Source: Chryseobacterium aquaeductus (lineage in GTDB: Bacteria; Bacteroidota; Bacteroidia; Flavobacteriales; Weeksellaceae). From it: a DNA stretch of 64,000 bases. The notes beneath the pieces were generated by a model. It made no database searches. It had not been told where the DNA came from and was given only the letters and a program-made list of their open reading frames with translations. The stretch is taken from contig NZ_CAJIMS010000001.1 of assembly GCF_905175375.1 (NCBI RefSeq), positions 1,612,001 through 1,676,000 of the forward strand, in the 5' to 3' direction. Made by a program: the position numbers and the translations under genes. Of this stretch, positions 30,061 to 62,439 are shown piece after piece. Position 1 is the first letter of the stretch; the number at the start of each line of letters is the position of its first letter.

Positions 30061-30831
30061 ATGAATACCCCTAACAGTAAAGCGGATAAACCTCATGAAT
30101 GAGGAGCTAAAAATTCTTCCCAAGACAATAAAAAGAACCTCTTTACTGCATTGAAAGAAGCGACAAACGATGGGAAAAAGGAGTGAGTGAAGAAAGTTGA
30201 ATATGAAGAATCGTTAGAGAACAACGAATGATGAGCCACCGAAAAAATGAAGAAAATGATACTGGCGGAGTTTGAAGGTATGTATGAAAACAACCAACCC
30301 CATGCCTCAGCTATAGAAAGATTACAGGCACGAGATGGGCTGGATTATAGAGAAGAAGCAGGTGTGAAGATCGTCAGTATTCCGTGATTTGGAGAGATTT
30401 GCAGTGCAGAAAATGCAAACATTAAACTTACGGATATGGATAAAAATGGGATAAGATCTATAGATAACCTCAAGGATTCAGAAACTTTTCAGGCTTTTGC
30501 CTCCACCATCAAAGGATGTGAAATGATGGAAGCTTCGGATACGTATCAACTTTTAAATACAATAGCCTTACAGCTGGGTTTTGACACTACTATTGATAAA
30601 AATAAAATCAGGGAATTTTATCACCATGCAGGTGAAAATATCGGAACGAACAACACGTTTTGAAACACTTTAAGAACCCTGTACATCCTTATGGGGGAAT
30701 CGTTTAAAATCCCTGTTTCTGTGGAAGATAACATCGTGCGGTCTGTTGATTGCAGCAGTTACCGTGCATGAATCACGAAGGATTATAGTAACAATACCAA
30801 CTATATCGCTCCCATTGCAAAGATTTTATAA
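30061..30831 (+). CDS. Unknown 256-aa protein, open only with TGA read as Gly
   Basis: From ATG at 30061 to TAA at 30829 the frame is open for 257 codons, apart from seven in-frame TGA codons (30100, 30184, 30229, 30232, 30385, 30661, 30769). There is no in-frame TAA or TAG. Reading TGA as Gly gives a well-behaved acidic protein, for example VSIP-G-FGEICSAENANIK and NNTF-G-NTLRTLYILMGES. TGA accounts for about 7 of 19 glycines. The family is unknown. In the standard code only fragments such as 30436-30663 would be made. A terminator follows 30 bases later. Confidence 0.72.
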
Positions 30832-30862
30832 AAGATGAATGCAGGAATTTCTATAAAAAAAC

Positions 30863-30893
30863 AAAAATTACGGCAAAGAAGCCGTAATTTTTT
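30863..30893. terminator. Bidirectional terminator between convergent genes
   Basis: AAAAATTACGGC-AAAGAA-GCCGTAATTTTT, a perfect 12-bp stem with A and T flanks. It serves the TGA-containing gene on the plus strand and the receiver gene ending at 30939 on the minus strand. It resembles, but is not the same as, the operator palindromes further right. Confidence 0.75.
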
Positions 30894-30938
30894 AAGTTAA
30901 GCAAACACGTTTTGCTTTTCCAAAATAATCCGAAGGGT

Positions 30939-32258
30939 TTAACTGTTTTTAACCGCCTGTTTGAGGAGTGCACACAATTCATGATACTTTGGGGAGTTCA
31001 GCCACTCGGTTTCAAAATCATAATGGGTATAATCATCAATTTTGACTTCTTCTCTTTTTTTAGACTTTCCTCGGGGACGGTTAAACCCTATATTGAAACT
31101 AATTCCCGCAGTAGTATAGTCCCTAGTCATTAAATCTTGATCAATTTTTCTAAAAGATATTAAAATTTCTGTGGGCATGGCATTAAAAAAACTCTGCCAA
31201 TGATCATCTTCGAGAGCTAGTAAATCCGTATCGATATTTTCACGAATAAAATATTCAAAAAACATCAATACTCTTCTAATAGCCAAGGCATTAATAAATT
31301 TTTTGGTAAAGTGCCCATTAAAAGAAGTAGCCTTATCCTTTATATAGGTTATCAGACGGTATTCAATGACGCTGTTCAATCTTTGATGGGGTTTCTTCGT
31401 AATATTATCAATCAGGGATGTAATGATATATTCTGCAATATGACTAATTTTTGGATAAAGCATTTCTTTATTTGTCCGCAAATACAGCATCATGTTTTGC
31501 ATCGTATCAGTATTCCATTCGCTTCGGTTATGTACAGGAGCTAAAAATTCAGCCTGCCTTTGAATCAAGTTCAAGAGTTCTATTTCTGGATTCCGGAATA
31601 CGAGTTGTGGGGTTTTATTTTTGAGTACCGGATAACTGTCGAAAATGCATAAATCTTGAAAACGAAGAGAAGTATGATTTATTTTGAATGTCTTTAAGGT
31701 TTCCCAGTCTTGAGTTTGTAATAAACGCACGCATTCTTGTTTGGTTTCAGTACCCATCTTCGATACTAAATAAAGGGAAACTTCTTTTAAATATCCGGAA
31801 ATTCTGGCTGCCAATATTTCATAACCTCCCACTCCCACTCCTTCAGCTTTACTGATAAAATGTTTTCGTATTTCTTCTTCTTTGGCGAACTGATTCATAT
31901 AGACGTGTGTAGCTCCGTGATTTGAAAATAATACTTTCACAACAGGATTATGCTTACCCAAAGCATCGATATACCGATAGAGATCGATTCCATTTCGAAG
32001 CTCCCGTCCCTCAATAATAACAGGATTATCGTCTTTTAAATTGATATCAATAATCGCCAGGTCAGGCTTAAAGGATTTAATTTGTTGTATGGCTGATTGT
32101 ATATCTTCCACGCGTTCAATTTCAAATACAGAATCTGCTAATTTTTGCCGGTATTGAATATCTAAATCTTTATTCGGATGATCAGGCAGTGGAATCAATC
32201 CTGCCTTGGCTGACTGTATTCCACTGGGTTCATCATCAATTAGTAAAACTTTAATCAT
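30939..32258 (-). CDS. Receiver-domain protein with long unknown C-terminus
   Basis: 439 aa. The N-terminal receiver domain has the acidic pair Asp8/Asp9 in LLIDDEPSG, the phospho-acceptor Asp71 in DLAIIDINL and VLFSNHGAT further on. After about residue 150 comes a 290-residue region without a recognised output domain, ending in basic sequence (NRPRGKSKKREEVK). The start overlaps the kinase gene stop by one base, so the pair is co-translated. The layout (receiver plus long unknown tail) is like that of the receiver protein at 20593-21651. Confidence 0.8.
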   Translation of the reverse strand: MIKVLLIDDEPSGIQSAKAGLIPLPDHPNKDLDIQYRQKLADSVFEIERVEDIQSAIQQIKSFKPDLAIIDINLKDDNPVIIEGRELRNGIDLYRYIDALGKHNPVVKVLFSNHGATHVYMNQFAKEEEIRKHFISKAEGVGVGGYEILAARISGYLKEVSLYLVSKMGTETKQECVRLLQTQDWETLKTFKINHTSLRFQDLCIFDSYPVLKNKTPQLVFRNPEIELLNLIQRQAEFLAPVHNRSEWNTDTMQNMMLYLRTNKEMLYPKISHIAEYIITSLIDNITKKPHQRLNSVIEYRLITYIKDKATSFNGHFTKKFINALAIRRVLMFFEYFIRENIDTDLLALEDDHWQSFFNAMPTEILISFRKIDQDLMTRDYTTAGISFNIGFNRPRGKSKKREEVKIDDYTHYDFETEWLNSPKYHELCALLKQAVKNS

Positions 32259-33742: not shown

Positions 33743-33746
33743 GGTA

Positions 33747-34151: not shown

Positions 34152-34155
34152 CCTG

Positions 34156-37099: not shown

Positions 37100-37333
37100 A
37101 TGCTAAAAATAGCCATTCACCATTTAAAAGAGATCAACCACTCACGAACGGCATACATTCACATAAACCCTTGTTTTTGAGAGTGTTTTTCCGGCGACGG
37201 TATTTTAATTTTGTCCACAGGAAATTCGAATTTCTACTCGAGCTGAAAAGAAAATGAAACAGTAAATCAGGAGAAAATTTACGTTTTGTCTTCTTTGTTT
37301 TTTCTCCACGATTATTTCACGAAAGAAGCTTAA
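37100..37333 (+). CDS. Small protein open only with TGA read as Gly
   Basis: ATG at 37100 to TAA at 37331, 77 aa, with two in-frame TGA codons, in INPCF-G-ECFSGDG and NFYSS-G-KENETV. There is no other stop in the frame. The sequence looks protein-like with host-like codon use, but the family is not known. It begins 34 bases to the right of the operator palindrome at 37050-37066, on the opposite strand to the GHKL-protease operon. It could be a divergent target of the same regulator. Confidence 0.5.
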
Positions 37334-40007: not shown

Positions 40008-40277
40008 ATGAGAACGAGCAAATTTACAGACAGCCAAATTTTGGCTATTTTAAAGGAGTATGAGACGGGGCAAACTGCCAAAGAATTGTCTCGGAAATAT
40101 GGATTCCATTATCAGACTTTGCACGATTGGAAAAAGAAATTCAGCGGGATTAATTCTACCAAAGAATTGGCAAAAATTAAAGAACTGGAATCAGAGAATA
40201 ATCGCTTGAAAAAGATGTTTGCCAATCTTAGTCTGGAACATGAAGCACTGAAAGACGTACTCTCAAAAAAGTGGTAA
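40008..40277 (+). CDS. IS3-family transposase OrfA
   Basis: 89 aa. An N-terminal helix-turn-helix (RTSKFTDSQILAILKEYETG, LSRKYGFHYQTLHDWKKKF) that binds the IS ends, then a leucine-zipper-like coiled coil (IKELESENNRLKKMFANLSL). Typical size and layout for OrfA. It ends just after an A6G run at 40265-40271, the usual place for a programmed -1 frameshift into OrfB. Confidence 0.92.
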   Translation: MRTSKFTDSQILAILKEYETGQTAKELSRKYGFHYQTLHDWKKKFSGINSTKELAKIKELESENNRLKKMFANLSLEHEALKDVLSKKW

Positions 40278-41164
40278 AGCCTGCCACAAAACGGGAAGTG
40301 GTCACTTATCTAGTTTCGGAATATCCGATGAACATTCGGCAGGCGTGTAAATCTTTGAATTTGGAGCGAAGCAGCTATTACTATCATCCCAAAAGAAAAG
40401 ATGATACGGACGTAATTGATTGCCTGAATCATCTTTCTGAAAAGCATCCCAGCTATGGATTCAAGAAAATGTTTCACAGTCTTCGTAATGAGGGTTTTGG
40501 TTGGAATCATAAGAAAGTATATAGAGTTTACAAGAAACTGGGACTGAATATTTTGAGAAAAAGCAGGAGAAGACTTGCTTCAAGAGAAAGACAAAACTTG
40601 GAAGTTCCTGAAAAATACAATGAAGTTTGGAGTATGGACTTTATGAGTGATTCTTTGTTTAACTCAAGACGATTCAGAACGTTGAACATTATTGATGATT
40701 ATAACAGAGAATCGATTTGGATTGAAGTTGGGCTTTCCATTGGAGCAATGCATATGACCGATCTATTGGAATGGATTGTAAAGGAAAGAGGAAAACCGAA
40801 AGCAATACGAACAGATAATGGTCCCGAGTTTACGAGTTCTGTTTTCACGAGTTGGTGTCATAAACACAGAATTGAAATCCGGTACATTCAACCGGGAAAA
40901 CCTGTTCAGAATGCTTTTATTGAAAGGTTCAACAGAAGCTATAGGACGGAGGTTCTGGATGCAAGAATCTTCAATAATTTGGTAGAAGTACGGGAAATAA
41001 CTTCTGATTGGATGGAGCATTACAATAATAACAGACCTCATGAAAGCTTGGGAAACCTATCTCCAATGCAGTATTTGTTGAAAAAGGAAAACTCGTCAGA
41101 CGGTAATCCCAACACCGAGTTTTCTCCTTTTCAACAAATTTTGCCAACATCAACAACAGAATGA
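40271..41164 (+). CDS. IS3-family transposase OrfB (DDE integrase)
   Basis: 297 aa in the -1 frame relative to OrfA. The first codon in frame is GTG, and expression is probably as an OrfAB fusion by -1 slippage on A-AAA-AAG. The DDE core is visible: VWSMDFMSDSL (Asp), IRTDNGPEFTS (Asp) and NAFIERFNRSYRTEVL (Glu), with the N-terminal HTH_21 region (SYYYHPKR, HPSYGFKKMFHSLR). The frame is complete. Confidence 0.92.
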   Translation: MVKPATKREVVTYLVSEYPMNIRQACKSLNLERSSYYYHPKRKDDTDVIDCLNHLSEKHPSYGFKKMFHSLRNEGFGWNHKKVYRVYKKLGLNILRKSRRRLASRERQNLEVPEKYNEVWSMDFMSDSLFNSRRFRTLNIIDDYNRESIWIEVGLSIGAMHMTDLLEWIVKERGKPKAIRTDNGPEFTSSVFTSWCHKHRIEIRYIQPGKPVQNAFIERFNRSYRTEVLDARIFNNLVEVREITSDWMEHYNNNRPHESLGNLSPMQYLLKKENSSDGNPNTEFSPFQQILPTSTTE

Positions 41165-41847: not shown

Positions 41848-42111
41848 ATGAAAAATTCGACCAATCCAACCCATGGCAGACAGGAAGTTCGGAATGCTTA
41901 TTCTGAAGGATGTCAAATCTTAAAGAGTATGTGAGTAAAAGCAGTTCAGGAAGCACAGGAAATTAGAGACCTTCTAATAGAGACCTTTTCTAATAAATCC
42001 GATGCTGCAGAAGTGTGAGAACTATTGGTAGATAATGTCAAAAAAAATAACTCAAAAATTCTTCAAGAGTTCATTGAAGAAAGTAAACCCTCCGATTATC
42101 TTTTAGATTAA
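41848..42111 (+). CDS. Small helical protein, open only with TGA read as Gly
   Basis: ATG at 41848 to TAA at 42109, 87 aa. Two in-frame TGA codons (41932 and 42016) interrupt a frame with no other stop: QILKSM-G-VKAVQEAQEIRD and DAAEV-G-ELLVDNVKKN. The predicted protein is amphipathic and helical throughout, acidic, ending PSDYLLD. I do not know the family. It is preceded by the third copy of the operator palindrome, so it probably belongs to the same regulon as the TPR-kinase operon. Confidence 0.65.
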
Positions 42112-45615: not shown

Positions 45616-45861
45616 ATGATATTTATTTTTACCAAACAATCAGAAAAAGAATTTTTAGCTTTGGAAAAAAAAGAGCAGGTTGTGATTCACAATAAACTTC
45701 TTAAGATCAAGCAGTGAGAAGGCTTTTTGATAAAACCTCTCATCAACCTTCCACCTTATACTCACAGGCTGAGAATCAGCCACTATAGACTTATGCTCAA
45801 GATATGTGATGAATGATACGAGATATTGAGAATCGGGCACAGATCAACTATTTATAAATAA
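45616..45861 (+). CDS. RelE/ParE-type toxin, open only with TGA read as Gly
   Basis: ATG at 45616 to TAA at 45859, 81 aa, with two in-frame TGA codons (45715 and 45814). The C-terminal half follows the RelE/ParE pattern: THRLRISHYRLMLKICDE-G-YEILRIGHRSTIYK, compared with the family's YRLRVGDYRVIY....LRIGHR..VY. It would act as an mRNA interferase or gyrase poison, and the sequence does not tell which. In the standard code the product would stop at residue 33 and be inactive. It directly follows its antitoxin gene. Confidence 0.75.
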
Positions 45862-46676: not shown

Positions 46677-46931
46677 ATGCTCGCAGACCAAATGATTTCG
46701 GTAAGTGATTTAAGATATAAAACCAAGTCGGTTATTGACTCTCTAAATACATGAGCCAAATATGTCCTGCTCAATAATAAACTTGAGGCGGTCATTCTTA
46801 CCCCGACAGAATATGAATATTTTAAGCAATTGCAAAAAGCAGAAGAATGGCGCTCAGATATTGAAGAGGCTAAGAAAAACAGTCCTGTATTTAATAATGC
46901 AGAAGATTTATTGTCCGAACTTTTAGCCTAA
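46677..46931 (+). CDS. Phd-type antitoxin, open only with TGA read as Gly
   Basis: ATG at 46677 to TAA at 46929, 84 aa, with one TGA at 46752. The sequence VSDLRYKTKSVIDSLNT-G-AKYVLLNNKLEAVILTPTEYE follows Phd/YefM antitoxins, whose pattern here is ..G.kYVLLNNKPVAVL.... The TGA falls on the usual glycine. The C-terminus (AEDLLSELLA) is the toxin-binding tail. TAA is directly followed by the ATG of the toxin gene. In the standard code the antitoxin stops at residue 25. Confidence 0.75.
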
Positions 46932-47195
46932 ATGAAATTTCAAAGGACTTCCAAATTCAAGAGACAGTTTAAAAAGTATCAAACACAGCCAAAGGTTTTG
47001 GAAAAATTTTCAGAATGTATCTCACAATTATTGTCTTGAAATCTTTCTCCTAAACGAAAGAACCACAAGCTTCAATGAGCTCTTAAAAATTTTCGAGAAC
47101 TTCATCTTTCTCCGGATATCCTATTAATCTATTATATAGAAGGCGATATTTGCTTTTTATCACAAATTGGGAGTCACTCCGATTTGTTTGGATAA
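46932..47195 (+). CDS. YafQ-type mRNA interferase toxin, open only with TGA read as Gly
   Basis: ATG at 46932 to TAA at 47193, 87 aa. Two TGA codons at 47037 and 47076. The C-terminal half follows the YafQ family closely: LLS-G-NLSPKRKNHKLQ-G-ALKNFRELHLSPDILLIYY and GSHSDLFG, against the family's G.pLP...rDHkL.G...g.RecHi.pDwLLiY....GsHs.LF. Both TGA positions are glycines in the family, the second (HxLxG) nearly invariant. This is one of the clearest cases for Gly over Trp. YafQ toxins cut mRNA in the ribosome. Confidence 0.82.
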
Positions 47196-49920: not shown

Positions 49921-50778
49921 TTAAAATAGTTTGACCTGAGTTCTGTCAAACAACCACCAATCCCCTACCGCATTTTGTTTAATTTCCTCTAAGGATTTGA
50001 ATAAGAAGTGAAATTTTGCTTCCGCAAAGGTTTTGTTTTCATCTTCAAACAACCTCTTCATCGCCATTTGTTTATAAACCTCCAGTTCGAAGATACAGAG
50101 AATACGGCTTCCATAATCCAACCCAAACATTCTGCTCGGTTGGCCGACTGACAATGCCCTCAAATGATGAAACAGCGATTTGTGAACACGGCTCGTGTCA
50201 TCTCCGTTATACATTTCAATGGCATACAACTCTTTTCTATTAGGTGTTTGAAGCATACAAAGTGCATCAGCAATCAGATAATCATTTTCAGAAACGGGAA
50301 TAGATGATTCCGCTCTGTAACCTTTCTTTCTTCCTGTAGAAACCTTATCAAAATAGGTCAAGAATAGGAGCATTTCACAATCGTCAATTTTGGAAATTCC
50401 TTCATGCAAAGCGATTTGAACATTAATCGTGTTCATTCTATGGAAGTAATCCTTTTGATAAAATTGACCTTCATTTTTCGGAAACCTGACAACATCTTCT
50501 CTCAAATAATCTTTAACAATTTCAGCACCATGAGCCTTGAGAAAATGTACATTTTCGAGTTTCCCTATTGCAGGATGAACTCCGAATGCAATAGAACCAA
50601 CCAACGGATCTTTCCGAAGTCTGAGTTCTGCAATTTGCTTGTTGAGATTAGCTCTTTCAGACATAATTCCAAGACCGAGCAACTGCCCTGCTGTTAAATA
50701 TTTGTAACGAGCCAAAGCTAAAAGAATTTTTTCCTGTGAAGGAGAAAGTGTTTGAAAGAATAATCTTTTGGTAACCAT
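49921..50778 (-). CDS. Replication-relaxation family protein
   Basis: 285 aa. The N-terminal winged helix (LSPSQEKILLALARYKYLTAGQLLGLGI, LRKDPLVGSI) and the following ENVHFLKAHGAEIV segment are those of the replication-relaxation family (PF13814), plasmid proteins usually beside a conjugation ATPase. Later it shows SIPVSENDYLIADALCML and ELYAIEMYNGDDTSRVHKSL, a restriction-endonuclease-like core pattern (D..E.K-like) that may support DNA nicking or binding. It lies 65 bases after the conjugation-type ATPase gene on the same strand. Confidence 0.75.
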   Translation of the reverse strand: MVTKRLFFQTLSPSQEKILLALARYKYLTAGQLLGLGIMSERANLNKQIAELRLRKDPLVGSIAFGVHPAIGKLENVHFLKAHGAEIVKDYLREDVVRFPKNEGQFYQKDYFHRMNTINVQIALHEGISKIDDCEMLLFLTYFDKVSTGRKKGYRAESSIPVSENDYLIADALCMLQTPNRKELYAIEMYNGDDTSRVHKSLFHHLRALSVGQPSRMFGLDYGSRILCIFELEVYKQMAMKRLFEDENKTFAEAKFHFLFKSLEEIKQNAVGDWWLFDRTQVKLF

Positions 50779-50843: not shown

Positions 50844-52769
50844 TTATAAATGAAACTTAGGTTTAATACTTCCGCTGGACTCTGTGGAATTTTGAGGTAC
50901 GGTTTCAGAATTCTCTGTTGTCAGAGAATCCGATGTTGGAGAAGTTGTAGTTTCGGAATCTGATGCCGGATTTATCGTTTCATGAGTTGTATTTTCTGAA
51001 TCCGATTGGGTTTTTGAAGGAATCAAAGTTGGGGAATGAACCGGATTGAGTATAGATTGGTTCGGTTGATTCTGACTTTTATTTTGAAACTGCGTTTGTG
51101 TTTGAATTGGATTGACATTCATGATGTCTCTGTAAATTCCCGATTCGGACAACAAATAAGCTTTCAATTTCTTAAGTTCTTCCTTGTTGCAAAAATATCT
51201 TTTCGGCTGTTTAATCAGAAAATCGGGGCTTTTAATTTTTACCGCAGGAAAATGATCGTGCTTTAAATAGAATTCGTAGGGTAAAAGACTCTGCATTGCT
51301 GAATAAGAAACTCCAAAATCCCCTGCCAATTCTTTAAGAGCAGGCAAACCATTGATTCCCGCCAATTTAACAGCCGAGTTATTCAAAACTGAATTCTTTA
51401 ATGATAATGGTATCTGACCGACACTTTGTGTTCCAACGATCAAACGGAGTTTGTACTTCCTAGCCTCTGAAAATATCGTTTGGATGCTTCCACTTTCTGT
51501 CGTGAAATTGTGAAATTCATCAATAAACAGATAACAGGGTTTTCTTGAATGTTCGGATTCGAATGCTCTTTGAAAGACAATGCTCAGAATTGTTGCCGAA
51601 ATAAATCTTCCGAGTGCTCTGCTCGCATCTTCTCCCAATTTTCCTTTGGATAAATTAAACAGGATTATCCTGCCTTCCTGCATTCCTTTCTTTAGGTCAA
51701 TATTGCTTTTTCCGTTCATCATGTGGTAAAACATCATATTGTTCTGGAGATGTTGTAATCTTGTATAGATTGCCAGTTTGGTGGGAGCATACTTCTTACT
51801 GAGGAATGCTGTTTCAAAAAACTTACGGTAGACCTGAAATGCCGATTTCTTTCCCAATTCCACCCATTTTGCATTTTGGGTATCATCCATAAAGACCTGT
51901 AGGTCGGATAATCCGCATCCTCCTCTTTCAAGCAAAACAGAAAGGCAAGGTTTAAGCAAAGCCTCCATTTGGAGAGACATTCCGGCTTCGGGAATTAATT
52001 CTGAAAATGCTTTGGCAAATTGTTGGGACATTACGTCAATTAAGAAGGGTTCAGCGACACGCTGCCAAAATGGATTAATGCAGGGAATTTTTCCATTTTC
52101 TAACTGCGGATCAATATACCAAACACGGTCGGGCTTTTGAAGATTGATACGGAAACCTAATAAGCTTTCAGATAGATCTCCGTGTGGGTCGAGGAGAATT
52201 AATGAGAATTGCTGTTTCAATTGGGATTGATGCTGGATCTGGTAGGCAATCGTTTTCATAAATTCCGTTTTCCCACTACCTGTCCTACCGCTAAGGAAAC
52301 AATGCCTGTCTAAAGCGGAAACGGGAAATGGGACAGGCTTTGGCGCAAAAAATAATGCGTGTAGCGAAGGAAGACAAAGTGAAAGAAGTTTTTGATAGTC
52401 GTGTTCATCATCGCCGGTAAAAGGAGGTAAAAATTTCGGGTGTTTTAACAGGAGATTCCAATAATCGAAAGCCGGTGAAACGGATACTGTTCTTTCCAAT
52501 TTTTCTTTGTTTACCGTTTTCTTGGTTCTCATTTCTTCAAATTCCTTGAAGGTCAGAAATCTTTTTTGAAGTTCTTTACGGTAATGAATCGAGCTTTTAT
52601 CCAGTCGGGCAAGATTTTTATCGATTGTTTTTATTCGTTCTGAAAGTAAAGCATCCCGACCCGAAGGATGTCCTCCGAGCAAATAGTTTCCAGCAAGTAG
52701 ATAAGGTTCTTGGATTCTAATTTTCCATAGAAAAGAAGTTTTGTTCCAGAATTGAATTGTTGAATTCAT
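50844..52769 (-). CDS. Conjugation-type (T4CP/VirD4-like) ATPase
   Basis: 641 aa. Walker A is GRTGSGKT (residues 161-168) in CFLSGRTGSGKTEFMKTI, followed by LILLDPHGDL and YIDPQ. Walker B is CYLFIDEFHNF, and RLIVGTQSVGQIP carries the sensor motif. These are the marks of DUF87/TraG-type DNA pumps and of conjugative coupling ATPases. There are no clear membrane segments, so it is a soluble type. The C-terminal 100 residues are a low-complexity Gln/Asn/Ser/Thr-rich tail. It would drive DNA transfer with the adjacent replication-relaxation protein. No relaxase was recognised in the window. Confidence 0.82.
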   Translation of the reverse strand: MNSTIQFWNKTSFLWKIRIQEPYLLAGNYLLGGHPSGRDALLSERIKTIDKNLARLDKSSIHYRKELQKRFLTFKEFEEMRTKKTVNKEKLERTVSVSPAFDYWNLLLKHPKFLPPFTGDDEHDYQKLLSLCLPSLHALFFAPKPVPFPVSALDRHCFLSGRTGSGKTEFMKTIAYQIQHQSQLKQQFSLILLDPHGDLSESLLGFRINLQKPDRVWYIDPQLENGKIPCINPFWQRVAEPFLIDVMSQQFAKAFSELIPEAGMSLQMEALLKPCLSVLLERGGCGLSDLQVFMDDTQNAKWVELGKKSAFQVYRKFFETAFLSKKYAPTKLAIYTRLQHLQNNMMFYHMMNGKSNIDLKKGMQEGRIILFNLSKGKLGEDASRALGRFISATILSIVFQRAFESEHSRKPCYLFIDEFHNFTTESGSIQTIFSEARKYKLRLIVGTQSVGQIPLSLKNSVLNNSAVKLAGINGLPALKELAGDFGVSYSAMQSLLPYEFYLKHDHFPAVKIKSPDFLIKQPKRYFCNKEELKKLKAYLLSESGIYRDIMNVNPIQTQTQFQNKSQNQPNQSILNPVHSPTLIPSKTQSDSENTTHETINPASDSETTTSPTSDSLTTENSETVPQNSTESSGSIKPKFHL

Positions 52770-53811: not shown

Positions 53812-54417
53812 ATGGGAACAAGAAACTTAACTGTTGTATTTCACAACCAAGAAGCGAAAATTGCCAGTTATGGACAATTTGATGGGCAACCTGATTCACT
53901 TGGAATAAAATTATTAAAATTCATCAGTAATCCAAGAAACACCGAAAACCTGAAAGAAATCCTTCCGAAAGTACGCCTTTGGAATGATAAAGACCAAAAG
54001 CAACAGGACGAATTTCTGGAATCTATCGACTGTATCAACGGAATTCTTAACGACAAGCAGAAAGAAGCATTCAAAAAACGTTACCCTTTCCGCTACCGTG
54101 AACGCTACGGAAAATTAACCGAAGGACAAATCTTAGAGGTCTTGCTGGAGTTTGCTCATCTGGACGAGATTGCAACCACTGACGCTTATGATTTTGCTTC
54201 CGACAGCTTATTCTGCGAATGGGCATATGTGATTGACTACGATAAAAATACTTTTGAAGTTTACAAAGGTCTCAACACCTCTGGGATTTCAGAAGAAGAC
54301 CGCTTCTACAGTCTGTATGACGGAGAAAACGATTATTATCCTGTCAAAATCATTGCCTCATTTCCTTTGGATGATCTTCCTGATGAAAACGAATTTTTAC
54401 TCGATTGTCAAAGCTAA
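53812..54417 (+). CDS. Unknown plasmid-operon protein
   Basis: 201 aa, acidic, soluble. The start MGTRNLTVVFHNQEAKIASYGQFDGQPDSLG resembles proteins found on phages and plasmids that begin GTRNLT, but no function is established. The C-terminus is a DDLPDENEF acidic tail. First gene of a rightward run of small genes (53.8-57.1 kb) that share A-rich start regions. Confidence 0.65.
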   Translation: MGTRNLTVVFHNQEAKIASYGQFDGQPDSLGIKLLKFISNPRNTENLKEILPKVRLWNDKDQKQQDEFLESIDCINGILNDKQKEAFKKRYPFRYRERYGKLTEGQILEVLLEFAHLDEIATTDAYDFASDSLFCEWAYVIDYDKNTFEVYKGLNTSGISEEDRFYSLYDGENDYYPVKIIASFPLDDLPDENEFLLDCQS

Positions 54418-54422
54418 AATGA

Positions 54423-54508
54423 GGTTGCAGGTTGCAGGTATAAGGTTTTAAGTAGCAGTTTATTCTGCCGCCTTACATTCCGGTATACTCACTATAACCT
54501 GCAACCTA
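54423..54508. repeat. Inverted repeat of GGTTGCAGGTT type
   Basis: AGGTTGCAGGTTGCAGGTAT on the left is mirrored by TATAACCTGCAACCT at 54494-54508, within a 125-base gap between two genes. A copy of this short dispersed repeat type is common in related genomes. Confidence 0.6.
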
Positions 54509-54544
54509 TTATCTAATAATCCCTATAACCTAAATCCTATAACA

Positions 54545-55129
54545 ATGAACAAAAACAAAAACCGTCTTTTGGTGCAGTGCTTTATGAAAATGCTACAGCA
54601 GAGAATCGAAAAAGACAAAGTGGAAAACATCAGTCCCGTATTCGGAAGTATCTTGAGTAAAGATGATCTTCAAAAAATCTTTAAATGGCTATACCCGGAT
54701 AGAGCACCTGAATCGTATGACTTTGAAACGATGGACAAACAAGATTTACTTGAAGCCATTGCTGATGATATTCATATTCTGTCGTATTCCATCGAAAAAT
54801 GGAACAAAGAACTGGAAGAAAAAGTCACTCCACAGAAAGTCTACGATGTACTTTGCCAGCTACAAATCGAAACTCATTATTTAATGACCAAGATTTTGGC
54901 TGATTGGGATGAATATGACCACAGTAACTTTAAGGCATTGTGCCGAAAGGCGGGAACTCCTCAACCCTTGTATGCCGTATTTGAATCTTCTGTAAAGGAA
55001 GAACACAAATACATTACGCTTCCGCTTTCCCAATATTACCCAACCCATTGGGAAGCTCAGGAAAAAGTAGCATTATTGATGAGCGAAGAAGGTTTTCCTG
55101 AAACTCAGCTCCAAATCCTAAGCCTGTAA
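54545..55129 (+). CDS. Unknown plasmid-operon protein, paralogue of 56494-57096
   Basis: 194 aa. The N-terminal 95 residues match the gene at 56494 in layout: LLVQCFMKMLQQRIEKDKVENISPVFGSILSKDDLQKIF against LLKIFSTVLKDRVKSEPQYQSISTEMVKHFSRKELIEII, with LLEAIADDIHILSYSIEKWNKEL against LLQLIGDDFKIISYVMSRWSKEV. The C-terminal half differs. Soluble, no known motif. Confidence 0.65.
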   Translation: MNKNKNRLLVQCFMKMLQQRIEKDKVENISPVFGSILSKDDLQKIFKWLYPDRAPESYDFETMDKQDLLEAIADDIHILSYSIEKWNKELEEKVTPQKVYDVLCQLQIETHYLMTKILADWDEYDHSNFKALCRKAGTPQPLYAVFESSVKEEHKYITLPLSQYYPTHWEAQEKVALLMSEEGFPETQLQILSL

Positions 55130-55159
55130 CTTTTTATCCAATTATTTTATAAAACAAAA

Positions 55160-55594
55160 ATGAAACAATCAATCTTAGAATTTTATTCTACTCTGGATAA
55201 AGCCAGAGACAGGGCGTTATGGCTGGAATTTGAGCATAGGAATGTTCCTAAGCAATTTGTGGTGTTTGATGGACCGGAGGAAGGCAACTATGCCGTTGCA
55301 GACAAGCAAACCGCCGAAGAAATGGAAATCACACATCAGTACTATTCACTTCCCGAAAATTACCAACATTGGACGTATGGTGATTTGAAAGGAATTGCAG
55401 GCGACCCTGAAATGTTATCTCATTTCGAGGAGCTATTGGGCAAATTTCAAGTGATGGAAGGCAATCTACTCAAATTCATTTTGAAGTACCAACTGCCATT
55501 GGAGAAAATCATTCGCCATGAGCTTGGTTGCAGAGGTTTTGACGATAATAATTGGGTTGGATTTCAAGAATCCGAAAAATACTGGATGAAGTAG
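55160..55594 (+). CDS. Unknown plasmid-operon protein
   Basis: 144 aa, acidic (many Glu), soluble. Motifs seen are RDRALWLEFEHRNVPKQFVVFDGPEEGNYAVADKQ and FEELLGKFQVMEGNLLKFIL. No family recognised. It follows the previous gene by 30 bases. TAG stop. Confidence 0.6.
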   Translation: MKQSILEFYSTLDKARDRALWLEFEHRNVPKQFVVFDGPEEGNYAVADKQTAEEMEITHQYYSLPENYQHWTYGDLKGIAGDPEMLSHFEELLGKFQVMEGNLLKFILKYQLPLEKIIRHELGCRGFDDNNWVGFQESEKYWMK

Positions 55595-55717
55595 AAACTT
55601 TTATCAATTGTCATTCATTATTAATCAATCTTATGAAATCGCCATGATTTGCAAACGCAAACGCCGATGAAGATTGAGCGATACCATATGACCATTAAAA
55701 AACAATAAAATCTACAT

Positions 55718-55972
55718 ATGAAAATAGACCCTAAAAAAGTTCCCGTAATGAAAAATCATTGCAAAACCTGTCCATTTAAACCAAATAAAAAGGGAGAATG
55801 GCAGGATGTAAAATTAGCCAATGATGTCATTGCAAGAACTTTACTTCAAGCCCATCAGATCTGCCACGGAACGGAAGGTGAAAACAGAAAGCCAACCCAC
55901 CGTTGCAAAGGAGCTTTCGAGCATAATCTCGAAATCTACAAAAGAATGGGACTTGATGATTTAGTAGAATAA
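55718..55972 (+). CDS. Small cysteine/histidine metal-binding-like protein
   Basis: 84 aa. The N-terminal NHCKTCPFKPNKKGEW, with a Cx2C pair before PF, and the later QICHGTEGENRKPTHRCKGAF form a four-cysteine, two-histidine pattern. This resembles the CxxCPF family of small zinc or iron-sulfur binding proteins (DUF6283-like) on phages and plasmids. Function unknown. ATG start, TAA stop. Confidence 0.65.
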   Translation: MKIDPKKVPVMKNHCKTCPFKPNKKGEWQDVKLANDVIARTLLQAHQICHGTEGENRKPTHRCKGAFEHNLEIYKRMGLDDLVE

Positions 55973-56001
55973 AAATCTAAAAAAACACTACCTAAAACAA
56001 A

Positions 56002-56214
56002 ATGGAAAACAAAAAATCAGTAAAACAGATTATGATTATTAATGCTGAAATGCATCAAAATTATCTTGAATCTTTTGTAGAAGAACCTATGGAATTTGTA
56101 GACTTTGTGAATTTCGGGCTTGGAACGCTCTTCAATGAAGAGAAAAAAATTGAACAAATCATTCCGAATGAAAATGCCTCTCGGTTTGTCATCATTTATA
56201 CGATAGCAATATGA
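56002..56214 (+). CDS. Small unknown protein with TGA stop
   Basis: 70 aa. Ends with TGA overlapping the next ATG (ATGA, 56211-56214). Reading this TGA as Gly would extend it by about 46 residues across another gene, which looks less likely than a normal stop. It is therefore an argument that at least part of the operon uses TGA as stop. No motif recognised. Confidence 0.55.
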   Translation: MENKKSVKQIMIINAEMHQNYLESFVEEPMEFVDFVNFGLGTLFNEEKKIEQIIPNENASRFVIIYTIAI

Positions 56215-56426
56215 ACAGGCAGGATCATGGTGTGTTTGTCCTTACCGTTTTTATCATCGTACACAAAACCAGCGGTATGGATATCGTTTATTTTCAGCCG
56301 AAATCCTTTTATCAAAGTTACCGAAAGGCTGATCAAGTAAGACAATCTCTTATCCGAAGCGGAAAGCTATCTGAAAACAATTCCTTTGTTGAAGGAGAAC
56401 GCTTTATGGTGGTTTGCGCAAATTAA
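56211..56426 (+). CDS. Small unknown protein
   Basis: 71 aa, basic C-terminal half (SFYQSYRKADQVRQSLIRSGKL). ATG overlaps the stop of the preceding gene by four bases, typical of coupled translation. No family recognised, but the sequence is protein-like. TAA stop. Confidence 0.55.
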   Translation: MNRQDHGVFVLTVFIIVHKTSGMDIVYFQPKSFYQSYRKADQVRQSLIRSGKLSENNSFVEGERFMVVCAN

Positions 56427-56493
56427 CACGAAAAAAAAACTCCAAAACAAAATCCTTAAACAAAATGTCTAACAATTAAAAAAATCCAACAGT

Positions 56494-57096
56494 ATGAACG
56501 AAAACAAAACGGCGCTCTTGAAAATATTTTCAACGGTGTTAAAAGACAGAGTAAAATCTGAACCTCAGTATCAATCCATAAGTACGGAAATGGTCAAACA
56601 TTTTTCCCGAAAAGAATTAATTGAAATTATTACCCACAACTTCGAGGGCGAAGTTCCATCGGAATTCAACCTCGTGGAAATGGAGAATAATGAACTTTTA
56701 CAGCTTATCGGAGATGATTTCAAAATTATCTCGTATGTGATGAGCAGGTGGAGCAAAGAAGTATCACAGCTTCCGACTCTACAGGAATGGATGCATTCTA
56801 AAGTACATTCTGCTCCTGAAAAGGAAACGGAAGAAAACTTGGAATCAAAATCAGAAGAAACCCAATTAGAAATTTCGGAGCATACTCCAACAACTGAATT
56901 TGTTTCTGAAAAACAAGATTCTGCTTCAGAAAATTCTGATAAACCCAATTCGGAATCTCCGAAACCTTCGGATGCATCATCTGAAGTTAAAAAATTGGAA
57001 GAGAAACAGAATTTCAATCCTGATTCTAAACCTGCTTCAGAAAAACCGTATTTCGGTAGGAAGCAGGAAGACAAGAAAACTGAAAAAAGCAAGTAA
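56494..57096 (+). CDS. Unknown plasmid-operon protein with low-complexity tail
   Basis: 200 aa. The N-terminal 95 residues are paralogous to the gene at 54545. Residues 100-200 are low-complexity acidic and Ser/Pro-rich (ESKSEETQLEISEHTPTTEF, KPNSESPKPSDASSE), probably disordered. TAA stop, followed by a terminator. Last gene of the ordinary run before the TGA-containing genes. Confidence 0.62.
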   Translation: MNENKTALLKIFSTVLKDRVKSEPQYQSISTEMVKHFSRKELIEIITHNFEGEVPSEFNLVEMENNELLQLIGDDFKIISYVMSRWSKEVSQLPTLQEWMHSKVHSAPEKETEENLESKSEETQLEISEHTPTTEFVSEKQDSASENSDKPNSESPKPSDASSEVKKLEEKQNFNPDSKPASEKPYFGRKQEDKKTEKSK

Positions 57097-57190: not shown

Positions 57191-57245
57191 TAAGCAACAC
57201 ACTCCCCTGCAATAGATACATTTACTTTATTTACAAAAAGTGAAA

Positions 57246-58100
57246 ATGAACAATTTCTCTGAAAATAAAATAACAATAAAAAATAAAACTCCCCTGCTTA
57301 AAGCAAAAATGAAAACCCCGATTACGTATTACGGTGGGAAACAGAATTTAGTCAAAGAACTTCTTTGATTAATTCCGCCTCATAAAATCTATGTAGAACC
57401 TTACTTTTGAGGTGGCGCACTGTTCCGAGCTAAAGAGCCTTCTAAATCAGAAATTATCAATGACACCAACATGAATGTCGTTAATTTCTACGAAGTTTTG
57501 AAGAAAAACTACAAAGCGCTACACGAAAAAATCGAAGCTACTCTTCATAGCAGAGAAACCTATAAAAAAGCGCTTTTCATTTATGAAACTCCCCGGCTTT
57601 TTGCAGACAACCCTGTCATAAGAGCACGATCATTTTATATATCGTGTAACCAATGATTCTGCAGTCGTATAGGTAGCTTTTGATATTCGAAGGACAACAA
57701 ATGCCCGACAACATTTCAGAATAAAATAGAAAATTTTAAAGAAGAAATGAGCTTACGTCTTTCTCTTACACAAATCGAGCAAAATCAGGCGGATAAGGTC
57801 ATTCAGTCGAGGGATCATGAAGAAGCCTTCTTTTACTGCGACCCTCCTTATATCGGAACGAACCAATGACATTACGGAGGTTATCACGAAGATGATTTTA
57901 TAAGAGATCTGACGGTATTATCTCAAATCAAGTGAAAATTTTTACTGAGCAATTTTCCATCTAAAATACTCGATAGGTTTGTAAAGGAGCATCAACGGTA
58001 TGTAAAAACCTTTGACCAACCTTTGTCAGCCTCTCACAACAGCAAGAAAGCTCTGAACAAAAGGAAAACGGAAGTGTTGGTGGCGAATTATCCGATATAA
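57246..58100 (+). CDS. Dam-type (D12) adenine methyltransferase, open only with TGA read as Gly
   Basis: 284 aa from ATG at 57246, or 263 aa from ATG at 57309 (MKTPITYYGGKQNL). Six TGA codons at 57366, 57408, 57654, 57681, 57867 and 57933, and no other stop. The D12 motifs are exact only if TGA is Gly: IYVEPYF-G-GGALF (SAM-binding FxGGG motif), CDPPYIGTNQ-G-HYGGY (motif DPPY with GHY.GY) and LSQIK-G-KFLLS. Dam-type enzymes methylate adenine, usually in GATC. TGA accounts for 6 of about 14 glycines. Trp cannot replace Gly in FxGGG. Confidence 0.85.
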
Positions 58101-58211: not shown

Positions 58212-58394
58212 ATGAACACTTCAAAACCAAAATACAACCATCAAAGAAAAAATGTCGTGATGCGCAAAATCAAACCAAGAATGAAACAAAGGGTCTTCAA
58301 AAATGAAGAAATTCCTATCTATAAAATCAGAAAAGATTACGAAAAATTTAAAATATGACCGAAGCTTAAAGCATGATTACCCACCTCCAAATAA
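58212..58394 (+). CDS. Small basic ORF overlapping the Dcm gene
   Basis: ATG at 58212. In the standard code it stops at TGA 58356 (48 aa). With TGA as Gly it runs to TAA at 58392 (60 aa). The sequence is rich in Lys/Arg (NVVMRKIKPRMKQRVFKN). Its 3' half overlaps the Dcm frame. It may be a small regulator or a chance frame. The evidence is only the open frame and composition. Confidence 0.35.
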
Positions 58395-59379
58395 TCTGAA
58401 AGTATTCTGAACTTTTGTTGGAGGTGGCGGTTCTACGATGGGATATAAGCTCGCAGGATTTCAACATTTGGGTGGTGTAGAAATAGATGGAAGAATGGCA
58501 AAAATCTACCAAGCCAATCACTCCCCTAAGTATTTTTACCACGAGGACATCAGGGATTTTAACCAAAGAAACGATTTACATAAAGAACTTTATAATCTAG
58601 ATATTCTGGATGGTTCTCCACCTTGCAGTACCTTTTCGATGTCCTGAAAACGTGAAGAATATCGGGGAAAGGAAAAAGTATTTAAAGAATGACAGAAAAA
58701 ACAGATTTTGGATGAACTCGTGTTTGTATTCTGTGATACGGTGGAAAAGCTTATGCCTAAAGTCGTTGTGATGGAAAACGTTCCGTGATTGATTGCTGGA
58801 AGAGCAAAGAAATATGCCATTGAAATCTACGAGAGGTTGGAGAGTTTAGGATATGAAGTGCAAATATTCAGAATGAATTCTGCCACAATGAGAGTGCCAC
58901 AGGCTCGTGAGCGTATTTTCTTTATTGCAAGGAAGAAGAATTTAGAATTTCCAGATTTACAATTGGATTTTAAGGAATCCCCTGTTTATTTTGGAGAAAT
59001 TGTTGATAGAAACTCAACTTCTCATCCTCATCTCCGACCTTCTATTGTCGAAAGACGGCCGTATGTAGAGTTTGGAGACCAAAATCTGAAATTTGCTGAT
59101 GCCAAATACAGAAACCTCAACACCTACAATGCATTTTTCAGCACCTATATATTATACGATAACATTGTTGCTCCTACTTTAACTTCGAGTTGAACTGCTG
59201 TTTATTACAATGAAGTCCGTAATCTCAATGATACAGAATACATCCGCATGAGTAGTTTTCCAAGTGATTTTGATTTCTGTGGAACTTCCGTCCGTTATGT
59301 TTGTGGGATGAGTGTTCCTCCGCTGATGACTGCGAGAATTGCTCTTGAAATCAAGAAACAATGGTTTGATATTTTGTAA
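58303..59379 (+). CDS. Dcm-type cytosine-C5 methyltransferase, open only with TGA read as Gly
   Basis: 358 aa. ATG at 58303 to TAA at 59377. Five TGA codons at 58408, 58645, 58690, 58786 and 59191. The catalytic motif IV is LDGSPPCSTFSMS-G-KREEYRGKEKVFKE-G-QKKQ, with the nucleophile Cys in PPC. Relatives have GKR and EGQ here. Motif VI is VVVMENVP-G-LIAGRAKKY. Later VPQARERIFFIA and NVFCGTSVRYVCGMSVPPLM-type sequence (motif X) are intact. A start further upstream at 58207 is in frame but would add three TGA codons. Single gene, no endonuclease visible nearby. Confidence 0.85.
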
Positions 59380-59918
59380 AATGCATTAATGCAAAATGAT
59401 TTTTAAAATCACAAATAATATTTTAACCCCAGCACTACTCTCCTCTGCTTTAATAAGGGTTTGTGAAGCTTCGTACATCCTTTGTAAATACTTAGTTCAT
59501 CAAGATAAGCTGTTGATTCCTCGCATTTGGAAAATGATAAACAATGTATTTATAAAGGTTGACACACTGCTCTGCCACGCATTTACAATGCATTGTCAAA
59601 GCAAACTTCAAGTTTGTTAAAGCGTGAACAAACCTTTTGCAATGAATGTCAAGGGATTGTTAAGGTAAAGACCTTGAAAAAGTGTTTTCAATGCTTATAA
59701 ATCCGTAAGGGTTTGAAAAATGTCTTTAAAACCTTTGACAATCCATCTTCCAACGTTTTATAAAGTTTTGCAAATCCCGTAACAAAGGCTTTACAAGCAT
59801 TGATGCCGTTGTAATAAAGCATCAGAAAAACAAGTATTGCACTGACTTTATACTGCGTGATAACCAAAAGTTATCGGTCACTTATCAATACTAAATCATT
59901 TATCATTAATAACATCTA
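59380..59918. other. Gene-free stretch with degenerate repeats
   Basis: About 540 bases between the Dcm gene and the HTH/membrane-protein gene. It holds several imperfect repeats around TTTACAAT/GCATTG, TTGACA and AAACCTTTG (for example TTTACAATGCATTGTCAAAG and CTTTACAAGCATTGATGCC). It may be part of the replication or partition region. No gene is supported. Confidence 0.4.
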
Positions 59919-60455
59919 ATGGAAATTTCAAAAGCAGAGGCAGAGAGAATGCTGGGTGTGAGTTCAACTACATTGTACAACCGGGCAAACAAGTTGAATA
60001 TCAAATTCATTAACAAAGTAGATTCCAAAGGAAAGAGCAGTTATCTGAACCGGGATGATCTGAAAAAAATGGCAGATGCAATGGGCAAACCGTTAGAATC
60101 TGCCACCGAATCGGTAACGAACGACTGACAACCATCAACTGACAACCATCAACCAAACAGAGCAGAGGAGTGAGCGACGACAGAAATCAAACAGGAAAAT
60201 TTCATGCTCCAGCTCAAAGTAAAAGAGCAGGAAGAAGTAATCAAATCAAACTATGAAGTCATAAATATCTACAAAGAGAACAATCTCCAACTGCAAAACA
60301 ACCAGCAGGAAGCCAAAAATCAGATCCAAGAGATGTACGGTCAATTATTGGGAGTCTCCAACAAAGCAACGACTTACTTTATTATAGCCATTGCGGTAAC
60401 TATTATTTTAGTTTTGTTTGTGGTTCTTGTTGCAACAGGAAATCTGAAATTTTAG
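59919..60455 (+). CDS. HTH, coiled-coil and membrane protein, joined only with TGA read as Gly
   Basis: 178 aa from ATG at 59919 to TAA at 60453. Two in-frame TGA codons (60126 and 60171) separate an N-terminal helix-turn-helix (ISKAEAERMLGVSSTTLYNRANKLNI, 1-65) from a coiled coil (EQEEVIKSNYEVINIYKENN, 95-145). A C-terminal membrane helix follows (YFIIAIAVTIILVLFVVLVA, 150-170). The two halves are in one frame and there is no TAA or TAG between. In the standard code they would be two separate ORFs. A membrane-tethered DNA-binding protein beside the origin could act in plasmid placement or control. Confidence 0.7.
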
Positions 60456-60471
60456 AGCAGAGGAGCCTGCA

Positions 60472-61049
60472 ACCCTGAAAATGTAGCCCCCCGAAATTAT
60501 AAATTATAGATTTTAAATGGAAAAACTCTAGTTACCCTAAAAATGTAGCTATTCATGAAATTTAAAACTAAAGATTATCAATAGACCTTGGATACTGAAT
60601 CTCTTTATCAAAGCCAATTCAAACACCAAAACAAACCTTTGTTAAACCTGAAACAATCTTTTGAATCTGCCCTGAAAATGTAGCCTTTCACTAAATTATA
60701 AATTTTAGATTATAGATTTTAAATGATAATAGTAAGAGGTTTTCAATTGTCTTTACTCTATATTCTTTCCTCACTATCTCTAAAAATAACAACAACTAAG
60801 CTTTTATTTTATCTCTGTTTAAGATGTTATATCACTTACGTTCTTATATTGTTTATAGGCTTTGAGATTGGCTACTGCAAAGGTTTTACGAAACATTGAG
60901 TATCAAATTTAGGGTAAAGGATACCAAAAACAGGGCGGAATGTTACAAATTCAGGGTAAAAAGTAACGGAATTAAGGCACTACAGCTACATAAACAAGGC
61001 GGAATGGCTGCTTATTCAAGGATTCTGTGAAGTATAACAAATTTAGGGT
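60472..61049. repeat. Iteron origin of replication (oriV)
   Basis: Six 16-base iterons. Three read ACCCTGAAAATGTAGC or close (60472-60487, 60534-60549, 60669-60684). Three read the opposite way as GTTACAAATTCAGGGT or close (60900-60915, 60942-60957, 61034-61049). Consensus in the second orientation is GYTACAWWTTYAGGGT. Between the halves lie AT-rich repeats (near 60500 and 60700, AAATTATAAATTATAGATTT). The Rep_3 initiator gene starts 157 bases after the last iteron. This is a standard iteron replicon with the two half-sets facing each other. Confidence 0.82.
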
Positions 61050-61206
61050 TTAATGAAAAATATATTGAAATATAACATTTAAAATTACAGTAGCTTGTGA
61101 ACGTAGCTGTGAAGAATGTAACAATGGAGCAGTTTACCAATGTACCAATGCAATAAATTAATTTCAATTTGAACATCTATAATCTAAAATTTATCATTTA
61201 AAGTCT

Positions 61207-62439
61207 ATGATAATGACCCAACTTACCGTCAAGAAATCCCATGAGCTCGTCACTGCAAGATATTCTTTTAATCTGATGGAAATGAGACTCTTTACCTTGA
61301 TCATCAGCATGATTCAGGACAAGGACGAAGATTTTAAAACCTACAATATTCCGATTAAAAATATTATCCAAACTTTCGGAATCAAAAACAAGAATATTTA
61401 TGCGGAAATTAATTCGCTGACCACTTCGATGCTCAAAAAAATCATTACCATTCCTGTAAAAGAGGAAGGTAAAGACAAAGAAATTAAAACGGCTCTGGTT
61501 TCGTCATTTAAATATTCCGTTGACGGCAGAGGAGTCTTGGAGGCAAGTTTTCATCCTGTTCTTAAACCGTACTTGTTGCAATTGAAATCTAAATTTCTAT
61601 TGTATGATCTTAAAAATATTCTGAAAATTTCTTCCGGTCACAGCATACGTTTCTATGAATTATTGAAAAGTTACGAGGGGATTTGAAAAAGAATTTTTGA
61701 AGTTCAGGAACTGAAAGAAATTCTTTGTGTAGAAGATAAATATGCAAAGTATGCCAACTTCAAAAAGAGGGTTTTGCTTAAGGCTCAGGAAGATATTGAA
61801 AAACATACCGACATTCGTTTTACCTTCGAGGAAATATCCGAATTTTCCAGAAGTGTGGAAAAGCTGGTTTTCACGATACATAAAAATAAAAAAACGGTTA
61901 TTGAAAGTAACAATACCAATAATGACCCGGAAAATGAGAATGAAAACGCTCACGAAAATAAATGGCACGATGAAATCAAGTCTTTCGGCGTATCTCAATC
62001 CGTTTTGGAAAATCAAATTTTGGAAGCATTTGAAGAGGAGTTTATCAAACAAACTTTGAAATTCTGTAAAGATTATTTTAAAACAACATCCGTAAAACAG
62101 AAAAGTGGATTTTTCCTCAAAGCGCTGCAAAACGGATATTACAAACAGGAAATTGAAAACCAGTCGAAAAAAATACAAAAGAAAAAAAATATTGGACAGC
62201 AAGAATCTGAACAAACCGAACTGGAAAAACAAAAAAATATTGCAAAAAAACAGAGGGCAGAGGAGTTAAGGGCTCAGTTTTTAACGCCCGAACTCATCGA
62301 AGAAATCATACAGAAACAGAAAGAAACCAATCTTTTCATGTATAATGTTATCAATAAATCTTATCAGCAGGGGATTGTAAATCCTTTTCTGGAAGGGTTG
62401 ATTGATAAAAAATTGTTGGAGGAGTTTGGGAGTAAGTAG
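61207..62439 (+). CDS. Rep_3-family replication initiator, joined only with TGA read as Gly
   Basis: 410 aa from ATG at 61207 to TAA at 62437. The initiator domain (TVKKSHELVTARYSFNLMEMRLFTLIISMIQ, then PVLKPYLLQLKSKFLLYDL) is typical of the plasmid RepB/Rep_3 family. One TGA at 61684 falls in YELLKSYEGI-G-KRIFEVQELKEIL, where family members have GKR or GER. The second winged helix and a long charged coiled-coil tail follow in the same frame. In the standard code the protein would stop at 159 residues, without the second winged-helix domain. Confidence 0.85.

Follow-up and report, generated by a model that had tools for sequence, protein, structure and literature searches.

In which genetic code are the genes of a replication and methylation module in Chryseobacterium aquaeductus written, and which cell could read them? 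The question is raised by a window of 64,000 nucleotides, that is, contig positions 1612001-1676000 of a genome of 2 contigs and 3,490,499 bases (99.94% complete). The window contains one end of an integrated element with genes in two codes. We consider it probable that this element is a shuttle, predicted to move between a standard-code host of the Bacteroidota and an Absconditabacteria-like partner, in which TGA means glycine and CGA and CGG mean tryptophan. Absconditabacteria are very small bacteria with a life spent on other bacteria.

Ten plus-strand open reading frames (ORFs) of the window are open from their start to TAA or TAG, and their 1,902 codons include 30 in-frame TGA with no internal TAA or TAG. 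An earlier note, made from the letters of this DNA, had claimed that these frames are open only with TGA as a sense codon and that decay does not explain them. Both claims hold: the expected share of TGA among random single-base stops in these codons is 16%, and the observed share is 30/30 (p ~3e-24). The tryptophan codon TGG is rare, with 3 occurrences among these 1,902 codons. Glycine is encoded by GGN in the neighbouring standard-code ORFs that were tallied, as the note had also stated. The ten ORFs, and a repeat-rich region among them, are listed here with their predicted codes and functions (CGR denotes CGA or CGG).

30061-30831, plus strand: altered-code gene with no predicted function, 7 TGA, 2 CGR (four metagenomic homologues)
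37100-37333, plus strand: unproven ORF, 2 TGA (no homologue found)
41848-42111, plus strand: unproven ORF, 2 TGA, 1 CGG (no homologue found)
45616-45861, plus strand: ParE-like toxin of a toxin-antitoxin pair, altered code, 2 TGA (weak Pfam match; homologue with 2 TGA in G050, Chryseobacterium sp. PS-8)
46677-46931, plus strand: Phd/YefM-like antitoxin, altered code, 1 TGA (match below the Pfam cut-off)
46932-47195, plus strand: YafQ-family toxin, altered code, 2 TGA, 2 CGA (Pfam match)
57246-58100, plus strand: D12-class adenine methyltransferase, altered code, 6 TGA, CGA/CGG at 4 Trp columns (Pfam, column alignment)
58303-59379, plus strand: C5 cytosine methyltransferase, altered code, 5 TGA, 4 CGR (Pfam, column alignment)
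59919-60455, plus strand: helix-turn-helix (HTH)-like protein, altered code, 2 TGA, 2 CGG (judged by eye; no Pfam match)
60456-61206, plus strand: repeat-rich region ahead of Rep, iteron-like, predicted origin (by eye)
61207-62439, plus strand: Rep_3 plasmid replication initiator (Rep), altered code, 1 TGA (Pfam, homologues)

Beyond the open frame, there is some homology support for 8 of the 10 ORFs; for those at 37100 and 41848 no supporting homologue was found and their coding status is unproven. The four ORFs between 57246 and 62439 have TGA-bearing homologues in other elements. Those at 45616, 46677 and 46932 are apparently toxin-antitoxin genes by their family matches: 46932 matches YafQ, and the Phd/YefM match of 46677 is under the Pfam cut-off (22.9 vs 29.8 bits).

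Residues encoded by TGA, CGA and CGG

Elements with the same genes and in-frame TGA are located in three further Chryseobacterium genomes, two metagenome-assembled genomes (MAGs) and one genome of another family. The element of the window is E1. E2 and E3 are from C. limigenitum SUR2 (contigs C17 and C34), E4 from the MAG SZAS-80, E5 and E6 from Chryseobacterium sp. PS-8, E7 and the fragment E8 from C. oryctis WLa1L2M3 (G074), E9 from the Flavobacterium MAG STD2_84 and E10 from G331, which belongs to another family of the same order.

The TGA codons were placed in alignment columns of the recognisable families. For D12 the yardstick was 96 homologues, after 24 of the 120 listed had been set aside for having W at Gly columns, and five of the six TGA of the window gene fall at columns with Gly in 95-96 of the 96. 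For C5, 80 viral homologues were used and four of the five TGA stand at conserved Gly, whereas Rep contributes its one TGA, at a column with Gly in 91 of 106 residues. This agrees with the earlier note, which had placed TGA at conserved glycines wherever the family could be recognised. The conserved Trp columns of the window D12 hold CGA, CGG, CGA and CGG, the fifth holds TTT, and the gene has no further CGA or CGG.

The same distribution is found across the elements. In the D12 genes of eight elements, 34 of 40 TGA among majority-residue columns (41 aligned) are at Gly, and the Trp columns account for CGA 9/9, CGG 19/19 and TGG 10/10; AGA, AGG and CGT are mainly on Arg columns. In the C5 genes of seven elements, 33 of 35 TGA among majority-residue columns (40 aligned) are at Gly, and Trp columns hold 23 of the 30 CGR (CGA 12/17, CGG 11/13). 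Six of the seven CGR exceptions lie at one Thr-majority column, where E3 has TGG. As a control, the standard-code C5 genes of G249 and G246 have no TGA in the aligned columns, and none of their 9 CGA is at a Trp-majority column. In direct comparisons between elements, TGA is opposite GGN 336 times, TGA 248 times and non-Gly codons 107 times, and CGR is opposite TGG 70 times, CGR 324 times, other Arg codons once and other residues 41 times; these are pairwise counts, with like-with-like scored from both sides, and are not independent.

Public D12 homologues carry the same signature. Among the 120 listed, R occupies Trp columns in 24/24 of those with W at Gly columns, vs 1/96 of the others (Fisher p 2e-24), a pattern which genes of the altered code would give if translated with TGA as Trp. 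Trp as the true meaning of TGA is ruled out, as the W of such translated homologues stands at Gly columns. Similarly, four metagenomic homologues of 30061 show W opposite several of its TGA, as expected from code-4 translation, and all four have W opposite its CGA at residue 91. In the HTH-like protein, CGR is opposite Tyr in 5/7 cases, which would be compatible with an aromatic residue.

Several observations weigh against this assignment. The sixth TGA of the window D12 (residue 41) is at a Pro column (93 of 96 homologues), and the CGG at residue 227 of 30061 is opposite R in 4/4 homologues. When CGR is read as Trp, the Pfam score of C5 does not rise (151.3 to 150.1) and that of D12 goes up slightly (92.1 to 98.0). 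In the coupling ATPase of E3 (see below), 5/8 TGA are at Gly columns and 2/6 CGR at Trp-majority columns, and the three CGR of the E3 homologue of the 49921 gene are at Arg, Gln and Gly columns (0/3 Trp). For these two E3 genes only TGA as Gly is supported, because the CGR columns disagree. The Arg signal for CGR is also weak in some genes taken as standard-code, namely the coupling ATPase (6/20) and 49921 (4/10), both counted with E3, and 46045 (2/6).

Judged by column alignments, TGA in these genes is a glycine codon inside a standard-code chromosome, and the altered code, in which CGA and CGG are predicted tryptophan codons, goes beyond plain table 25. The earlier note had named code 25, the code of Absconditabacteria (SR1) and Gracilibacteria; glycine for TGA stands, and the plain table does not. 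According to passages of PMC8629427, the predicted code of Absconditabacteria has Trp for CGA and CGG besides Gly for UGA, and in some Gracilibacteria perhaps CGG alone is affected. The Trp reading of CGA and CGG thus points to Absconditabacteria rather than to SR1/Gracilibacteria at large. The likeness to the Absconditabacteria (SR1) is in the codon meanings given in those passages. The difference is one of extent: there the code belongs to the whole cell, and here only part of the genes on a mobile element use it, within a standard-code, prfB-bearing chromosome.

Element borders and the two gene classes

The earlier note had confined the block to 30061..62439 and held a chimeric contig to be the main alternative. 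Neither is retained. The element is far larger, about 89 kb, from 14767 of the window to C1:1715787, about 39.8 kb beyond the window end; tRNA attachment repeats bracket it, and the mixed module recurs in other genome records. In detail, an exact 58-bp repeat connects 14767-14824 with C1:1715730-1715787 and corresponds to the 3′ part of tRNA-Leu(UAA). A further exact repeat of 24 bp lies inside each end (window copy 14886-14909). The far attachment site (attR) was first seen as a weak tRNA match 40 kb past the window, which is a 3′ fragment of tRNA-Leu(UAA). Just inside the far repeat is a tyrosine integrase of 402 amino acids with Arm, SAM_5 and phage integrase domains, whose gene is readable with the standard code. 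With direct repeats at both ends, one of them in a tRNA gene, and an integrase at one end, this is an integrative mobile element. The near border (attL) and the standard-code genes in the window are as follows.

14767-14824, plus strand: attL, 3′ part of tRNA-Leu(UAA) (gene 14739-14823); exact 58-bp repeat at C1:1715730-1715787
24615-29756, minus strand: standard-code cluster of six ORFs (24615, 24999, 25682, 26526, 28418, 29334) with no TGA; 5/6 matched in C. limigenitum E2
49921-50778, minus strand: standard-code protein, whose family has weak Replication-relaxation (PF13814) matches in other elements; E3 homologue with 3 TGA
50844-52769, minus strand: TrwB/VirD4-like coupling ATPase, standard code; E3 homologue with 8 TGA; in E10 one copy with TGA and one without
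53812-57096, plus strand: four standard-code core genes (53812, 54545, 55160, 56494) with no TGA and CGR mostly at Arg (column alignment)

Mobile elements of Bacteroidota that integrate at tRNA genes by a tyrosine integrase are a known class. The present element resembles them in its tRNA-Leu attachment repeat, its Arm/SAM_5/phage integrase and its coupling-type ATPase, and differs from them in its altered-code module for replication and methylation.

A mobile element mixing two codes, as the note had suggested, is indeed what the two gene classes indicate. The four core genes are TGA-free in every element where they were found, with CGA/CGG at Arg columns in 9/16 (53812), 4/6 (54545), 4/4 (55160) and 6/6 (56494) cases, and beside them stands the TGA-bearing module. 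The integrases of E3 and E7 also have CGR at the expected Arg positions (by eye). The Rep-HTH-C5-D12 module has the same core genes of standard code as neighbours in elements with a protein likeness of 36-98%. D12 is found in E1-E7 and E9, C5 in E1-E7, and the HTH-like gene and Rep in E1, E2, E4-E7, E9 and E10. Every copy has one TGA or more. The TAA assigned to C5 of E6 and D12 of E7 are upstream of the start of the open frame, and that of C5 of E2 is at the gene end, with none in residues 1-355.

The coupling ATPase changes its code between elements. It has no TGA in E1, E2, E4, E5, E6 and E7 and 8 TGA in E3, and E10 has one copy with 5 TGA (three at all-Gly columns) and a second copy with none. 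Its tree requires at least two changes of the code label, with long branches for E10. The altered-code C5 genes, on the other hand, form one clade (100/100) beside standard-code relatives. The PF13814 matches are below the cut-off, with E under 1e-3 in 3/5 homologues.

The window Rep matches 25 places in 20 of the 173 genomes of the genus. Five of these places, in four genomes, are full-length with 53-100% identity and 1 to 4 TGA; 19 are stop-free, namely one short 78% C-terminal piece and otherwise Rep_3 proteins with 25-35% identity; and one is a short 29% match with 1 TGA. Rep relatives with TGA also occur in the MAGs SZAS-80 and STD2_84, and in G331 (46%, 4 TGA), from a scan in which 2/395 genomes were over the cut-off, the window's own genome among them. 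C5 has 12 places in 9 of the 320 genomes of the family, seven of them full-length with 4 to 8 TGA. Stop-free C5 genes are found in G249, G246 and G026, and an edge piece with TAA in G244. Among viral contigs no Rep relative was found, and of the best 80 relatives each, C5 is TGA-free in 80/80 and D12 in 77/80.

Further genes of the relatives carry TGA. E3 has a serine recombinase with 6 TGA and a predicted secreted protein of 1,204 amino acids (7972-11586 of its stretch), which has 28 TGA and matches a thrombospondin-type domain and may be a surface protein of a second host. A similarity of an E3 protein to 30061 was rejected. An altered-code serine recombinase in E10 was also rejected, since its two TGA are at the gene end. 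A tRNA-Leu(CAA) gene lies directly after Rep in E10 (joined G331 stretch, 26414-26496). Its position suggests an integration at a tRNA-Leu gene here too, the tRNA-Leu(CAA) probably being an insertion site; a second copy of the 3′ part of this tRNA gene was not seen in 50 kb.

Two side observations concern other parts of the element. At its far end (C1:1676001-1716000) a module is present twice with identical or nearly identical proteins, consisting of an 807-residue primase-like protein, recombinases of 267 and 294 residues, an HTH regulator and Rhs-type genes. In the window, an Rfam isrN match (42.3 bits; gathering threshold 44) covers positions 40276-40418 and runs antisense to the beginning of an insertion sequence transposase gene.

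Decoding capacity of the host and selection

The chromosome is standard-code, as the earlier note had it. The release factor gene prfB is present over the cut-off, and TGA terminates 25 of 196 ORFs of at least 100 amino acids in the sampled chromosome stretches, window included, so TGA is a stop in this host. The note had named an intact prfB and a tRNA-Gly(UCA) as the genes worth a search; the latter was not found in the host genome. All 55 host tRNAs found have ordinary anticodons (55/55; Gly with GCC once and UCC twice, Arg including UCG and ACG), in a search that scored 150 of 315 first-look candidates. Four extra low-score tRNA matches (E 0.4 to 10) were dismissed, one being the attR tRNA-Leu fragment and the rest not UCA tRNAs. 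A pattern search for UCA tRNAs in four genomes gave 12 matches, none a tRNA by ARAGORN, which also found no tRNA in the element stretches examined (E1 past attL, E2, E4-E7 and E9). In the element stretches examined, no suppressor tRNA was detected by Rfam cmscan (E up to 5, 40 kb) or by a relaxed cloverleaf scan. Apart from the attachment site of E1, the tRNA-Leu(CAA) beside Rep in E10 is the sole tRNA seen in these stretches. The conserved region before Rep was considered as a tRNA and rejected, as it resembles plasmid iterons. Since no tRNA-Gly(UCA) was found, the host cell is probably not the decoder of the altered-code genes. As a separate observation, the second contig (C2, 27.8 kb) has 0/28 ORFs of at least 100 amino acids ending in TGA vs 25/196 in the chromosome, with no altered-code gene shown there.

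Purifying selection acts on both gene classes. For the pair E1-E2, the ratio of nonsynonymous to synonymous substitution rates (dN/dS) is 0.052-0.105 for four altered-code genes vs 0.097-0.158 for six standard-code genes. Other element pairs are concordant where dS could be estimated, with dN/dS up to 0.25.

One element and two proposed hosts

These features could be explained by a bilingual element with two gene sets in two codes, each expressed in one of two hosts from different phyla, so that the code would act as the address label of each protein, and the coupling protein would have been re-coded at least twice according to the donor cell. We regard this account as likely, though a little less firmly than the shuttle itself; the presence of a second host is inferred. 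In Bacteroidota, the integrase, whose code is standard, would insert the element into the chromosome, and genes of the altered code would stay unexpressed, since TGA terminates translation in these cells. The Absconditabacteria-like partner would replicate the element as a plasmid through the altered-code Rep; in that cell the methyltransferases would protect it against restriction, and the toxin-antitoxin genes would ensure that it is kept. Rep proteins, protective methylases and toxin-antitoxin pairs serve plasmid maintenance. As these are altered-code and the integrase is ordinary, the element may exist as a plasmid where the altered code is read and as an integrated passenger in Bacteroidota. 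Coupling ATPases act in the donor cell, so their code would show which cell donates, and it is ordinary in six elements, TGA-bearing in E3 and of both kinds in E10. A possible contact route is offered by the lifestyle of Vampirococcus, an Absconditabacterium which, according to PMC8080830, lives on and consumes other bacteria.

Some results weigh against the two-host explanation. No Absconditabacteria genome with the element was found in a single contig scan with Rep, in which the phylum itself was not searchable; the four loci recovered are all in records labelled Bacteroidetes, Chryseobacterium or Flavobacterium. Searches of the open PMC literature met no report of Chryseobacterium as prey of Absconditabacteria. 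Among the ORFs scanned, the coupling-type ATPase is the conjugation gene found, and no full type IV secretion set was recognised. Finally, a C5 fragment on contig 24 of G074 carries 3 TGA and 1 TAG, so some copies decay.

This decayed fragment would also fit a one-way capture, in which integrative elements of Bacteroidota acquired a plasmid module of Absconditabacteria that is now silent cargo and never returns. The module should be unreadable in Chryseobacterium, where prfB is present and no suppressor was found, and purifying selection could predate recent captures. However, the module keeps the same standard-code neighbours, the core genes, in elements with proteins 36-98% alike, dN/dS is low and alike in both gene classes, the element's own initiator is in the altered code and the coupling ATPase exists with and without TGA. 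On balance we consider one-way capture unlikely. Pseudogene decay, or an artefact of sequencing or assembly, can point to the presence of stops and to that one fragment, and to nothing more; it is hardly credible given that 30/30 stops are TGA (p ~3e-24), that TGA at Gly and CGR at Trp columns appear in several genome records and that dN/dS is ~0.1.

A different possibility is code switching within Bacteroidota, where TGA would lock the module until a helper phage or plasmid brings a tRNA-Gly(UCA) and a tRNA-Trp for CGR. Phages with recoded stops and suppressor tRNAs are described in passages of PMC10746230, and viral contigs with UCA tRNAs exist. No UCA tRNA was found, however, in the element stretches examined, and a single cell would need to read CGR as Trp in one gene and as Arg in its neighbour. 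The host has tRNA-Arg(UCG) and tRNA-Arg(ACG). Code switching is therefore quite improbable, more so than one-way capture. No link to the element could be made for 73 viral contigs with UCA tRNAs. One viral contig, IMGVR_UViG_3300028588_000819 (184,871 bp), has a tRNA with anticodon UCA at 2474-2549, whose acceptor stem fits the Gly rule of PMC8629427; its coding density over 10.9 kb shows no clear preference for table 25.

Regarding known systems, no element with genes in two codes for two hosts was met in searches of the open PMC literature (titles and abstracts; subscription papers and preprints lie outside it). The phages of PMC10746230 (2023), as far as the relevant passages describe them, are similar in their proposed movement between bacteria of the candidate phyla radiation (CPR) and standard-code bacteria. 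They are without in-frame TGA, each gene being expected to be readable in both hosts, whereas here separate genes are in separate codes with 30 in-frame TGA. Stop-recoded phages such as Lak, treated in the same passages, are comparable as mobile genomes in which some genes cannot be read with the normal code of the host. They often have their own suppressor tRNA, and they recode one stop in one host, whereas here no such tRNA was found and CGR is changed too.

The crAss-like phages are further examples of stop recoding. Where a single code is applied to a whole genome, annotation cuts genes short in the deposited records. For instance, the Rep of PS-8 has 227 amino acids in the public record and 407 in the frame with TGA as Gly. 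The public Rep of Chryseobacterium sp. EO14 is a piece of 241 amino acids, and an in-frame TGA in the full gene is likely.

Deviant genetic codes are commonly regarded as obstacles to gene transfer. If the two-host explanation is true, a parasite overcomes such an obstacle with genes written in both codes, and there would be genomic evidence as to which free-living bacteria are contacted by an uncultured Absconditabacterial lineage. The element would then also be a candidate for a natural two-host vector for CPR bacteria.

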